Positions 6,427 through 10,948 of a stretch of 20,416 bases of DNA are shown in pieces (the stretch's first letter is position 1; each line of letters opens with the position of its first letter). The DNA comes from a virus. The translations under genes and the position numbers were made by a program. The notes beneath the pieces are model-generated. The model was not told the origin of the DNA. It did no database searches and saw only the letters and a program-made list of their open reading frames with translations. The stretch is from IMG/VR virus record IMGVR_UViG_3300022592_000039, positions 1 to 20,416 of that record; one strand, written 5' to 3'.

Positions 6427-6456
6427 AAGCTATCACTATAATAAAACGGTACTTTT

Positions 6457-7071
6457 ATGTTTAAACCAACTAATAAATCTTCAAGAGAAATTGGCAGAGC
6501 AAAAAGAAAAAATGACAATTTGCCTATCTTACAAATGATGTACAACGGTGATGAAACTATTCCGTTAAGCTGTCTATTAACTGGTAGTCCTGGATGGGTT
6601 GAAATTCCGTGTTTGGTAACTGAAGGTTACAAAACTCGTTTTTGTATTGATTTCAATCATATACGTCAACATTGTAAACGTACTGGTTGGGCTGGTGATA
6701 GTGTAGATAAGAGTACAACCCCAAGTGAACTTCTAAGATCAAAAAATCTTTCTGAAGATTTACCATCATTATTTGAATTTATGACAATGATGCCTGTAAG
6801 TCGTCAATATCACAAATATATATCCCAAGATAGTGCAATAGGAAATATTACACTAGCTAATTATCCATTAAAACATTGGCCATGGATTTTACGTGAACAA
6901 GATAATTATAAACATTTTATTAAAAAATATAATATCAAAACAGAAATAACATATGATTGGTTAATAGATCATTTATCAACAATAACACACCCTTCAATTC
7001 ATGATCGGTTACCATCTCAATTATTGATAAATACTGAAATAACTGAGGATATTCAACATGAGAGCAAATGA
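6457..7071 (+). CDS. Protein of unknown function (first gene of a late unit)
   Basis: 204 residues. The N-terminus is basic (KPTNKSSREIGRAKRKND), the middle holds a strand-rich part (IPLSCLLTGSPGWVEIPCLV, KTRFCIDFNHIRQHCKRTGW) and the C-terminal half is helical and rich in His, Tyr and Ile. Four cysteines and many His are present but not in a spacing I recognise. No signal peptide or membrane helix. It stands alone behind a perfect late promoter, so it is likely made late in infection, perhaps as a virion or assembly protein. Its 3' end contains another late-type promoter and overlaps the next gene by 14 bases. The ribosome site is weak. Confidence 0.65.
   Translation: MFKPTNKSSREIGRAKRKNDNLPILQMMYNGDETIPLSCLLTGSPGWVEIPCLVTEGYKTRFCIDFNHIRQHCKRTGWAGDSVDKSTTPSELLRSKNLSEDLPSLFEFMTMMPVSRQYHKYISQDSAIGNITLANYPLKHWPWILREQDNYKHFIKKYNIKTEITYDWLIDHLSTITHPSIHDRLPSQLLINTEITEDIQHESK
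7026..7033 (+). promoter_or_regulatory. T4-type late promoter GATAAATA
   Basis: GATAAATA matches the NATAAATA late consensus and ends 24 bases before the ATG at 7058; the predicted start is about 7040. It lies inside the 3' end of the upstream gene, in the same arrangement seen at 15213-15220, which supports it over chance. Confidence 0.5.
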
Positions 7072-7417
7072 ATTTACATTGGGTACTTACCCAGAAAGAC
7101 CTGGAAGATCGAGTGATCGCCCTAAACGTGGTCATCAACTTGAACCGCAATTTAAAATTGACGTTGATGATGATGAATTAGATGAACGTGGTAAAGCATC
7201 TCATGCTTTATGCACTGGTGGGTTACCTGATGCTGATTTAAGTAAAAGTGATTTAGATAGCTGCAAGTCTCAAGGATTAAGAGCTAGAGATACTAATTCT
7301 AAATTCACATTAACGCCTGGTGGTAAACCAGTATCTATTAAAGGTAAAAAAGTCAAAGGTAAGAAATACGGCGGCCCATTACCAGATTATACACCTAAAA
7401 AGAAAAAGAATAAATGA
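7058..7417 (+). CDS. Small MRAxEF protein with lysine-rich tail
   Basis: 119 residues, starting MRANEFTLGTYPERPGRSSD, with GAGGAT upstream. The first six residues match the start of two other small proteins in this window (12490 and 15243). A central part, SHALCTGGLPDADLSKSDLD with the following SCKSQGLRARD, contains two cysteines in a block I associate with phage-encoded small proteins, and the C-terminus is very basic (KGKKVKGKKYGG, TPKKKKNK), consistent with DNA binding or packaging inside the capsid. The MRAxEF start plus basic tail recalls T4 internal head proteins, whose N-terminal targeting peptide is removed by the prohead protease; that link is inference. It overlaps the membrane protein gene by ATGA. 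Confidence 0.65.
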   Translation: MRANEFTLGTYPERPGRSSDRPKRGHQLEPQFKIDVDDDELDERGKASHALCTGGLPDADLSKSDLDSCKSQGLRARDTNSKFTLTPGGKPVSIKGKKVKGKKYGGPLPDYTPKKKKNK

Positions 7418-7824
7418 AAAATATATTATGGAAAATTAGCGGTTTTGTCTGTCTAGGGATGGCATACGTGGGAGTAATAACTCCAGGTATACCATTCAGC
7501 ATTTTTATCGTAGGCGCAGCTTATTGTTTTTCAAAGAGCAGCAAAAAAATGCACGATTGGATTTACAACCATGAATTATTTGGTCCATTTATTACGAATT
7601 GGACTAATCATAGTGTTTTCCCACAAAAAGCAAAGTTCATGATGGTAGCAATGATGTCTAGTAGTTTAGTAATTATGTGGTTTGCTACACATAATTTAAA
7701 AGCAATTATGTATACTGGAATAACAATGTTATTAGTTGTTATTTGGGGATGGAGATTTCCAGGTAGTTTAGAAGAATACGAAATGCGGAAATTAAAAGAT
7801 AAAAAAATAGGATGGATTAAATGA
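7414..7824 (+). CDS. DUF454/YbaN-type inner membrane protein
   Basis: 136 residues with a hydrophobic N-terminal hairpin (GFVCLGMAYVGVITPGIPF, then SIFIVGAAYCF), the signature AAYCFSKSSKKMHDWIYNHE and LFGPFITNWTNH, and two more membrane helices (FMMVAMMSSSLVIMWFA; AIMYTGITMLLVVIWGW). The order G-x-x-TPG-x-P, AYCF-x-x-SS, W-x-x-x-H-x-x-FGP is that of the DUF454 (YbaN) family, a host inner membrane protein family of unknown function. It is full length for that family. ATGA overlaps on both sides tie it to the MRAxEF gene and the secreted nuclease, so the phage makes a membrane and a periplasmic protein together. It was probably captured from a bacterial host. Confidence 0.75.
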   Translation: MKNILWKISGFVCLGMAYVGVITPGIPFSIFIVGAAYCFSKSSKKMHDWIYNHELFGPFITNWTNHSVFPQKAKFMMVAMMSSSLVIMWFATHNLKAIMYTGITMLLVVIWGWRFPGSLEEYEMRKLKDKKIGWIK

Positions 7825-8535: not shown

Positions 8536-8811
8536 ATGAAAATTTCAGAATTAATAAGATTGGATGAACGTGCACCACTATTAGATAAATTATCCAAGTA
8601 TGCACAATCACATTATAGAACAAAAGATGAGAATGAAGCATTGCTGTTACTATTAGCTAGAGGAATGGTTCATTCTAAAGAAGATGACGATAATTTAAAA
8701 TTAGATGTTTCTGAAATTAATAATAAACTTGAAAAATTAGATAAAGAAATTAAAGCAACTAATTCCAATCTTAATAAAATAAAAGTTTCTAATTCAGATT
8801 TAAATATTTAA
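8536..8811 (+). CDS. Small acidic coiled-coil protein
   Basis: 91 residues: an N-terminal part MKISELIRLDERAPLLDKLS, a helical middle (DENEALLLLLARGMVH) and a C-terminal coiled coil (EINNKLEKLDKEIKATNSNL). The opening M-K-I-S-E-L is a looser version of the MRAxEF start of three other small proteins here. It begins one base after the nuclease stop; the ribosome site is weak. Its last codons overlap the displaced ALAS 3' end on the other strand, so it is the last plus-strand gene before the ALAS/endonuclease insertion. No function recognised. Confidence 0.6.
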   Translation: MKISELIRLDERAPLLDKLSKYAQSHYRTKDENEALLLLLARGMVHSKEDDDNLKLDVSEINNKLEKLDKEIKATNSNLNKIKVSNSDLNI

Positions 8812-8868
8812 TATAGTAGATAACGCAGTAATTAAATCTTCAATCATACCATCAGTATGTAACGGGTA
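8800..8868 (-). pseudogene. Displaced remnant of an ALAS C-terminus
   Basis: Read on the minus strand from 8859, the sequence encodes HTDGMIEDLITALSTILNI and stops at 8800-8802. The intact ALAS ends HTDGMISDLVEALTIVMK, so 10 of the first 13 residues are identical. An ungapped DNA alignment of 8821-8859 with 9776-9814 gives 27 identities in 39 by my count. Just upstream a Pro codon also aligns (ccg), then stop codons appear in this frame (TAA and TGA at about 8869-8877, the TGA being the endonuclease stop), so it is not a gene. It sits 7-15 bases past the end of the homing endonuclease gene, on the same strand as ALAS. Confidence 0.8.
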
Positions 8869-8874
8869 TTATTC

Positions 8875-9681
8875 TCAATGATCTTTCAATTTACAATTAT
8901 TGAAGTGGTGCCTAGTCATATTTCCTCCCTTTCCAGCTTTTCCACAATATGGACAGGTACGCACAGGCAAATTTTTCTTTGCTTCTGAAATTTTTTGTTT
9001 ATGTTCATCGGAAAATATTCTATTAGATAATTTTAATCGTGTTTCGTCAGTAACAACTCTTTTACGATTAGCTTCACTTATTTTAGCACGAGTTTCAACT
9101 GAATGTTTTCGACGTTTACTTGCTTCGCTAATTTTTTTTCTAGTTTCAAGTGATGTAACTCTTTTCCTACTTGCTATCCCTATTTTTAGTTTTGTTTCAG
9201 CTGAACGTTTCTTTCCCAAGTTAGCAGCAGAGCATTTTGATCTTGCTTCTACACTATGCGTTCTTCCCTTACTTGCAATAGCTCTTTTCGCATTTGATTC
9301 ATCGGTTTGTTTTTTTCCGATATTGGCTATTGATAATTTTTTTCGGGTTTCTTCTGATGGGGGTATTCCTTTATTACCACCACCTTGTAATCCATTTTCG
9401 GGTATTAAATTAGCCCAATCTTTTGATTTTACAATGTTGTTTTCTTCTGAAAATTTTAATGCAAATTCAATCAGTAATTCTTTATCAGTGAACGGATCAG
9501 ATACCCATATAGTTTCTATAAATTCTTTGCCATGTTTTTTATAGTGTTTCTTCCAATATGTACCGGACCCTAGATACTTATAAGGATCAGATTCTGTAGT
9601 TTTACCAAAATATTTAAGACCTGTTATTGAATGTTTTTTAATATAAAGATATGTTGGTGGTATTTCTGTATAAATACACAT
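8875..9681 (-). CDS. GIY-YIG homing endonuclease with NUMOD3-like repeats
   Basis: 268 residues from ATG at 9681, chosen because ATGGAGG lies eight bases before it; the open frame extends further with an ATG at 9696 and a TTG at 9723. Residues 10-51 form a GIY-YIG-type nuclease core of the phage variety (TYLYIKKHSITGLKYFGKT, YLGSGTYWKKHYKKHG). Residues ~104-237 hold eight short basic repeats of the S-x-E-T-R-x-K-I-S-E-A type, i.e. NUMOD3 DNA-binding modules. The C-terminus has a zinc-ribbon-like CPYC ... HHFNNC (Cys243, 246, 263 with His258/259). This is the layout of free-standing phage homing endonucleases, which cut a related genome lacking the gene and spread by repair. It follows ALAS on the same strand with its own late promoter and appears to have displaced the native ALAS 3' end. 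Confidence 0.88.
   Translation of the reverse strand: MCIYTEIPPTYLYIKKHSITGLKYFGKTTESDPYKYLGSGTYWKKHYKKHGKEFIETIWVSDPFTDKELLIEFALKFSEENNIVKSKDWANLIPENGLQGGGNKGIPPSEETRKKLSIANIGKKQTDESNAKRAIASKGRTHSVEARSKCSAANLGKKRSAETKLKIGIASRKRVTSLETRKKISEASKRRKHSVETRAKISEANRKRVVTDETRLKLSNRIFSDEHKQKISEAKKNLPVRTCPYCGKAGKGGNMTRHHFNNCKLKDH
8980..9370 (-). repeat. Tandem NUMOD3-like coding repeats
   Basis: Within the endonuclease gene about eight imperfect units of 48-54 bases encode SEETRKKLSIANIGKK, THSVEARSKCSAANLGKK, VTSLETRKKISEASKRR, KHSVETRAKISEANRKR and related units. Each is expected to place a short helix on DNA, so the number of units sets target length. The units are diverged rather than identical. 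Confidence 0.7.
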
Positions 9682-9706
9682 GCTGATGTCCTCCATAGAC
9701 GTTAGA

Positions 9707-9736
9707 GTAGTTGGGAACGTCAATTCCGTGAACTAC
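9707..9736 (-). promoter_or_regulatory. Hairpin at the 5' end of the endonuclease transcript
   Basis: GTAGTT (9707-9712) pairs with AACTAC (9731-9736), and GGAA with TTCC inside, separated by a small internal loop; loop of six bases. It would lie right at the 5' end of an RNA started from the late promoter at 9742-9749, and about 25 bases before the endonuclease ATG. Possible roles are RNA stabilisation or limiting translation from read-through ALAS transcripts; the pairing is modest. Confidence 0.35.
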
Positions 9737-9741
9737 ATCTT

Positions 9742-9749
9742 TATTTATC
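9742..9749 (-). promoter_or_regulatory. T4-type late promoter for the endonuclease
   Basis: On the minus strand the bases read GATAAATA, a match to NATAAATA, in the 76-base spacer between the ALAS stop and the endonuclease start. Predicted transcription start is about 9735, giving a leader near 54 bases. Phage homing endonucleases often carry their own late promoter, which fits. Confidence 0.6.
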
Positions 9750-9757
9750 TCGAATAC

Positions 9758-10948
9758 CTATTTCATTACGATAGTCAACGCTTCAACAAGATCGGAAATC
9801 ATACCATCGGTGTGGTTCGGAGTAGGGGCGAACCTCAATCGTTCAGTACCGACATCAACAGTAGGACTATTAATGCTTTGTGCGTATATATTATATTCAT
9901 TTAGCAATAAATCACTAATCTCTTTAGATTTTTTAGCATCACCTATCATTACTGGAACAATATGTGTCGTGCTTTCCATAACTGGTATACCAGCTTTCTT
10001 CATTCTATATTTCAATTTTTTAGCACGTTCATGTATCTGTAATCTTAGTTCATTGTGGTCTTTTAAATACTTTACTGCTGCCAACGCGCCAGCACATATT
10101 ACTGGACTAAGGGACGTGCTAAAAATAAAACCAGCAGCGATACTTCTAATTGCATCTATAACCATTGCATCTGCGGCAATATATCCACCTTGAACACCAT
10201 ACGCTTTTCCAAGTGTACCGTTAACAATATCAACTCTATTTTGTAGACCCATTTCTTCTAGTTTTCCAGCACCAGTATCTCCATATAATCCTACAGCGTG
10301 TACTTCATCCAGGTATGTAATTGCATTATATTTGTCTGCTAAATCAACAATCTCTTTTATATTGCTAACATCACCATCCATAGAATACACTGACTCAAAT
10401 ACAATACATGGTGTATTACCATTTTCTATTGCTTTCTTAAGACATCTTTCTAAGTGTGTTAAATTATTATGTTCGAATATTTGTTTAGGTGCACGACTAT
10501 GGCTCATTCCAACAATCATGCTATTATGGTTTTTACTATCACTAATAAATTCAATATTTGTTATAATCTTAGATAACGCAATTAAACTCCATTCGTTTGC
10601 TACATATGCTGAGGAAAATAACAATGCTCGTTCTTTTTTATGCAGTGTTGCCAATTCATGCTCTAGCGCAACATGATAATGACTCGTGCCGGATATATTT
10701 CTTGTACCACCTGAACCAGCACCAGTCATATCTAATGCTGTTCTCATCGCATCAAGTACTACTTTATGCTGGCCCATTCCCAAGTAGTCATTACTACACC
10801 AATTTACTATATTTTTTATAGCATAAGGGCCATACCAAATTGCATTAGGGAACTTACCCTGTTCCCTGAGTATGTCATTGAATACCCGATATTTTCCATT
10901 ATCTTTTAATGTTTGGATTAAATTTTTAAAGTTATCTTTGTTTATCAT
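9758..10948 (-). CDS. hemA: 5-aminolevulinate synthase (ALAS)
   Basis: 396 residues, full length for bacterial ALAS (about 400). The enzyme condenses glycine with succinyl-CoA to 5-aminolevulinate, the first step of Shemin-pathway tetrapyrrole synthesis (heme, chlorophyll, cobalamin), using PLP. Visible features: Arg21 in GKYRVFND; WCSNDYLGMG (50-59); GAGSGGTRNISGTSHYH (76-92); the Asn-His-Asn segment near 140-142; YLDEVHAVGLYGDTGAG with Asp214 and His217; NGTLGKAYGVQGGY with the PLP-binding Lys248; and ERLRFAPTP near the end. Lys248, Asp214, His217 and Arg21 coincide with the numbering I recall for Rhodobacter ALAS, and the Gly-Thr-Arg-Asn-Ile-Ser-Gly stretch favours ALAS over the related ligases KBL and BioF. 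All key residues are present, so it is probably active. No strong ribosome site precedes the ATG. The last ~25 codons look compositionally different and were probably replaced together with the endonuclease. Confidence 0.93.
   Translation of the reverse strand: MINKDNFKNLIQTLKDNGKYRVFNDILREQGKFPNAIWYGPYAIKNIVNWCSNDYLGMGQHKVVLDAMRTALDMTGAGSGGTRNISGTSHYHVALEHELATLHKKERALLFSSAYVANEWSLIALSKIITNIEFISDSKNHNSMIVGMSHSRAPKQIFEHNNLTHLERCLKKAIENGNTPCIVFESVYSMDGDVSNIKEIVDLADKYNAITYLDEVHAVGLYGDTGAGKLEEMGLQNRVDIVNGTLGKAYGVQGGYIAADAMVIDAIRSIAAGFIFSTSLSPVICAGALAAVKYLKDHNELRLQIHERAKKLKYRMKKAGIPVMESTTHIVPVMIGDAKKSKEISDLLLNEYNIYAQSINSPTVDVGTERLRFAPTPNHTDGMISDLVEALTIVMK

Follow-up and report, generated by a model that had tools for sequence, protein, structure and literature searches.

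A probable composite mobile element, pairing a substitute C-terminus with a homing endonuclease, at a viral 5-aminolevulinate synthase gene

Elements known as mORFs, which carry C-termini into the genes they invade, have been described in fungal mitochondria, in atp6, atp9, cox2 and nad3 of Glomus sp. and atp6 of Allomyces (PMC3630166), with further cases in atp6 and cox2 of Phlebia (PMC4019555). In such cases an endonuclease follows the host gene, which ends in a foreign, in-phase C-terminus, and a remnant of the native C-terminus persists downstream, nearer to uninvaded relatives than the inserted one. Here we describe a comparable arrangement in viral DNA, a stretch of 20,416 nucleotides (nt; IMG/VR virus record IMGVR_UViG_3300022592_000039, positions 1 to 20,416; hereafter the window), in which a gene for 5-aminolevulinate synthase (ALAS) is followed by an endonuclease gene and then by a second ALAS-like end. 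We consider it likely that the interval is a composite mobile element, made up of an ALAS C-terminus that replaces the native one, a leader for late expression, and a homing endonuclease of the GIY-YIG family. Its parts, other than the leader, are as follows (other viral loci are designated L followed by a number).

9758-10948, minus strand: ALAS gene, a hybrid of native body and inserted tail (open reading frame; Pfam Aminotran_1_2, 1e-67; 80 viral relatives at 75-86% identity)
9818-9850, minus strand: 33-nt ALAS tract, GGTACTGAACG...CCTACTCCG, preceding the tail
9758-9817, minus strand: inserted ALAS tail, NHTDGMISDLVEALTIVMK-stop, 20 codons
8875-9681, minus strand: GIY-YIG/NUMOD3 homing endonuclease gene
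8800-8865, minus strand: displaced native ALAS tail, (P)LHTDGMIEDLITALSTILNI-stop (equivalents at 6017-6140 in L007 and 5482-5541 in L001)
8536-8811, plus strand: convergent small gene

An earlier note on this DNA had reported an intact ALAS gene with its stop at 9758-9760 and a GIY-YIG gene after it on the same strand, and open reading frames and fold matches bear this out: the ALAS frame is intact (stop TAG at 9760-9758), and the endonuclease frame runs on the same strand to a stop at 8875. The hybrid ALAS frame remains open and is conserved, and its product may retain ALAS activity. The note had also placed a second ALAS-like end at 8859-8800, outside genes and preceded by stops, which was right, and two further native codons (PL) can be added to it. 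From 8865 to 8800 the remnant reads P-L-HTDGMIEDLITALSTILNI-stop (the whole second end being PLHTDGMIEDLITALSTILNI-stop); it lies outside any gene, in-frame stop codons stand immediately upstream (TGAGAATAATACCCG), a gap of 9-12 nt separates it from the endonuclease stop, and its last 12 nt lie within the 3' end of the convergent gene. Its resemblance to ALAS is far beyond chance, since Smith-Waterman alignment of the 75-nt stretch containing it scored 68 with the native-tail consensus and 63 with the tail of the window's own ALAS, while the best of 5,000 shuffled versions of that stretch reached 30-31. The remnant is 76% identical to the tail of L006, which carries no endonuclease, and the live tail 57%.

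The window was compared with 80 viral ALAS relatives and 80 loci of a neighbouring clade. At 156 loci the sequence was long enough to look for a second ALAS end in the 2.6 kb downstream, and the only loci to have one were the carriers of this GIY-YIG gene, namely the window, L007 and L001-L005. Empty sites of the kind that the earlier note had predicted were found in L014, L074 and L075, which have no endonuclease and in which the convergent small gene comes straight after a remnant-type tail. Non-carriers near the window typically end, as the remnant does, in (L/F/Y/M)H(D/T)DGMIEDL(I/V)xAL. The live type of tail was found in carriers only and in none of the endonuclease-free relatives: that of the window is 98% identical to the tail of L001 and 73% to that of L007, both carriers, and 51-61% to those of the non-carriers L006, L014 and L017. 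Among the tails of non-carriers nt identity reaches 69% at most, so the donor lineage cannot be named. An N codon after PTP was considered as a mark of carriers and dropped, as the clade L286-L304 has a native PNHT without an endonuclease. In a separate observation, an HNH endonuclease that lacks the leader comes immediately after the divergent ALAS of L281 (8798-10001, minus strand; on the same contig as L285). The tail of this ALAS stands apart from those of its clade (mean identity 53%, other pairs 75%) and a remnant is absent, which is suggestive of a possible second, independent tail swap.

Which of the two tails is foreign is best judged from two comparisons. Between the window and L001, ALAS is 79% identical up to the tail, 98% within the tail and about 74% in the flank past the element, whereas reference pairs with ALAS bodies 75-80% identical have tails of 63-78% identity (5-95% range). 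The block of near-identity begins at 9850, takes in the leader and ends near codon 86 of the endonuclease frame; within it the 33-nt tract is the same in both throughout, by alignment and mismatch map. At codon 86 the endonuclease of L001 (5225-5541), like those of L002-L005, is shortened by a deletion at a shared TGATTGAA, which joins it in frame to L001's own remnant, an ALAS tail of native type.

L007, a sister phage of L006 with flanks 93-97% identical, is a mosaic. The first ~560 nt of its ALAS are L006-like, mostly at 97-99%, and the middle is L017-like at 87-97% (92% overall), a division that is reflected in trees: over the first 540 nt L007 groups with L006 (97% identity; support of 97 in the Shimodaira-Hasegawa-like approximate likelihood-ratio test, SH-aLRT), and over nt 600-1125 with L017 (SH-aLRT 99.9), a grouping with L006 being rejected there by the approximately unbiased test (p-AU 5e-5). 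At the PTP/N codons, the same codon as in the window, the tail changes type. From there the live tail of L007 is 73% identical to that of the window, 59% to that of L006, 53% to that of L017 and 55% to its own remnant. The L007 and L017 ALAS bodies are 88% identical but their live tails only 53%, whereas equally close pairs have tails at 80-98%. Over its first 62 nt the L007 remnant is about 95% identical to L006, and over the last 17 codons it matches L017 at 88%. Between the window and L007 the tail (73% nt identity) and the endonuclease (72%) have diverged equally, which fits joint descent.

These comparisons support the central claim of the earlier note, that an endonuclease element replaced the 3' end of ALAS and left the old end behind, and none of the three outcomes that the note had named as refuting it was observed. 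The note had allowed that the remnant might come from a different ALAS lineage; it is the remnant, however, that is native, and the live tail that is foreign and co-inherited with the endonuclease. Tail, leader and endonuclease appear to act as a unit moving between phages at one ALAS site. How much upstream donor ALAS is carried along varies, being about 550 nt in L007 and 33 nt in the tract common to the window and L001.

Several observations weigh on the other side. Distinct carriers number only three. A tree built from the tails separately, as the earlier note had proposed, does place the carriers' tails together (support 82/89), but its 51 columns are too few for the alternatives to be rejected (p-AU 0.18-0.35). 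The remnant starts at the junction in the window and about 48 nt upstream of it in L007, which gives no support to one fixed cut position; the joining of the far end probably involved no homology, or else some trimming. Finally, at other loci where the leader and an endonuclease follow a gene on the same strand, no clear second tail was found above chance, except for ALAS in L007, and tail capture therefore does not seem to be general in this class.

A composite element of this kind might spread as follows. The endonuclease would cut an endonuclease-free ALAS near the conserved GTERLRFAPTP-(L/F)HDDG codons, and the break would be repaired by phage recombination with the carrier genome as template, entry occurring through homologous upstream ALAS. 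Repair would copy the recoded tail, the leader and the endonuclease into the recipient ALAS, while the recipient's old tail, on the far side of the break, would be rejoined behind the endonuclease and stay as the remnant. This scheme, with its cut, its repair route and a recoded tail that would resist the enzyme, is modelled on the biology of homing endonucleases (PMC2988022).

The strongest competing explanation is that the tail is merely donor ALAS sequence co-converted beside a passenger endonuclease, and is no dedicated part of an element and has no protective role. Homing does co-convert flanking sequence (PMC2988022), and L007 has also acquired some 550 nt of L017-like ALAS. The tail of L007, however, does not match this lead-in: the final 65/65 nt before it are identical to L017, and identity then drops abruptly at PTP/N. 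This drop suggests that tail and endonuclease form a unit apart from the rest of ALAS, and we regard co-conversion alone as unlikely. Much less probable is a group I intron, or its relic, with an alternative 3' exon, in which splicing restores the native tail. Excising the CCG-to-CCG interval of the window would indeed yield the native tail in frame, but no precise excision would restore a single native tail in L007, where about 48 nt from upstream of the junction recur in the remnant; in addition, Rfam gave no intron match in the window region (E up to 5) or in L007 (E up to 0.1), and a U at the 5' site and a terminal G at the 3' site were not found together. Two related tails on one strand could also have arisen if the ALAS end had simply been duplicated in tandem, the copies had diverged and the endonuclease had later inserted between them, but this is very improbable, being contradicted by a live tail in L007 that is closer to that of the window than to its own remnant, and by a window tail that is almost that of L001 despite 79% identity of the gene. 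Although every carrier is an uncultivated contig, chimeric metagenome assembly is scarcely credible: the same architecture exists in three diverged forms and recurs in separate metagenomes (L007 and L268; L001-L005), which a single faulty assembly would not produce.

The endonuclease of the putative element matches NUMOD3 in Pfam (5e-15), a family of modular DNA-binding repeats, and phrog_314/phrog_655 (homing endonuclease). A structure model built on 18 related sequences has a mean predicted local distance difference test score (pLDDT) of 78, and of more than 85 for residues 11-90. The best structural match of its N-terminus is the I-TevI catalytic domain 1ln0 (Z 7.0, 2.9 Å over 83 residues), the second I-TevI 1mk0 (Z 6.7), and those that follow are mainly other GIY-YIG nucleases. 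A Z below 8 is weak on its own, but the ranking is consistent, and the predicted N-terminal fold is thus GIY-YIG. PF01541 itself was unmatched in the Pfam scan of this protein, Foldseek of the model against the PDB returned nothing below E 0.001, and a profile search of PDB sequences gave no match. From the position of the leader, the most likely start is the ATG at 9681, and not the TTG at 9723.

The leader between ALAS and the endonuclease, all on the minus strand, comprises the following.

9676-9749, minus strand: whole leader, with promoter box and two hairpins (also at more than 80 viral loci, such as L160, L172 and L229, and in L365 and L366)
9742-9749, minus strand: T4-late-like promoter box, GATAAATA
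9707-9736, minus strand: hairpin P1, GTAGTTCACGGAATTGACGTTCCCAACTAC
9686-9702, minus strand: hairpin P2, around the Shine-Dalgarno sequence (GGAGG, 9694-9690)

Its order is GATAAATA, 5 nt, the hairpin GTAGTTC-CGGAAT..TTCC-CAACTAC, TCTA, the P2 hairpin, CAGC and ATG. A scan of viral contigs gave matches at no fewer than 120 loci, and 89 leaders were listed after removal of chance and duplicate matches. TAAATA lies within 22 nt upstream in 86/89 of those listed, and exactly 5 nt before P1 in 75 of the 86, while only 1.1% of random 22-nt windows contain it. This spacing is what would be expected, by consensus only, if a T4-type late transcript started at the first base of P1. Across 55 sequences, 95% of pair cells are standard and 90 are compensatory, against 25 in shuffles, and shifting the pairing partners abolishes the covariation signal. 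The outer stem of P1 is paired in 55/55 sequences, one of its pairs covarying as U-A/A-U/G-C, and all five pairs of P2 have changed on both sides.

By a rough motif count among the matches listed, the genes after the leaders are GIY-YIG-like in 58 cases, HNH-like in 21 and other in 4 (one of these having an HNH-type motif); Pfam and PHROGs scans likewise found both GIY-YIG and HNH types. A covariance model detected distant copies before nuclease-like genes in two cultured phages, Variovorax phage V45v66 (E 1e-11) and Rhizobium phage RHph_I1_18 (E 4e-10). The leader was unmatched in Rfam, and its pattern gave one match in 84,980 bacterial and archaeal genomes, about chance level by our estimate. 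L007 has, further downstream than the convergent small gene, a second leader whose GIY-YIG-type endonuclease is a different one (6427-7418), and L017 has this same leader and endonuclease without the ALAS element. In predicted folds the Shine-Dalgarno sequence is unpaired at 0.53 in the late RNA versus 0.47 in the read-through RNA, and the start region at 0.55 versus 0.45, the late value being higher in 58/77; with so slight a predicted advantage, timing control like that of I-TevI is no more than possible. We tentatively raise a broader possibility, which the evidence leaves somewhat short of probable, that the element is built of portable modules: a substitute tail, and an RNA leader for late expression common to unrelated GIY-YIG and HNH enzymes. 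The leader would be a dedicated, exchangeable device for expression and regulation, recognised by a phage or host factor, with nuclease and target tail swappable while the device stays.

Elsewhere in the window, a gene for a DUF454 membrane protein lies near ALAS (7414-7824), and what comes straight after ALAS in many relatives, including L286-L304, seems to be DUF454-like sequence (such as GIAYIGVIVPGIPW); DUF454 and ALAS may thus be functionally linked. The cultured phages searched gave only distant ALAS-family matches and no DNA match to the window region.

ALAS has been described as an auxiliary metabolic gene of aquatic phages, as here (valaS; PMC11480375, 2024), in a paper whose text does not mention homing endonucleases, and our literature search, which covered open-licence papers, found no phage case of a tail-swapping endonuclease and no description of the leader. 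The closest phage parallels are in T4. With I-TevI and other GIY-YIG homing endonucleases (PMC2988022) the present enzyme shares the predicted fold, a late-type promoter and RNA structure at the ribosome site, but it is free-standing, without an intron, and its leader is one conserved sequence across GIY-YIG and HNH enzymes. The common leader suggests that very different homing endonucleases of T4-like phages use one control device. In T4 topoisomerase gene 39/60 (PMC5009743) an endonuclease likewise sits in a host gene, the accompanying sequence may protect from cutting, and the product stays usable; there, however, the gene is split and a 50-nt non-coding insert is bypassed by the ribosome, whereas here a substitute tail would be supplied.

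In conclusion, selfish nucleases can apparently alter how a useful phage gene ends and carry it across phage species, and the sisters L006 and L007 provide a near before-and-after pair for studying target choice, recoding as a means of resistance, and cost to the host gene. The architecture is already known from fungal mORFs, and the shared leader is the more novel part. The earlier note had proposed a composite of the fungal mitochondrial type, and with a foreign in-phase tail and a native remnant both found, all the mORF features that can be read from DNA are present; the Glomus atp9 case is, like this one, GIY-YIG. The present element differs in that its carriers are phages, its host gene is metabolic and its leader is a late one of phage type. 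Its occurrence in phages as well as in fungal mitochondria suggests that this solution arose more than once.
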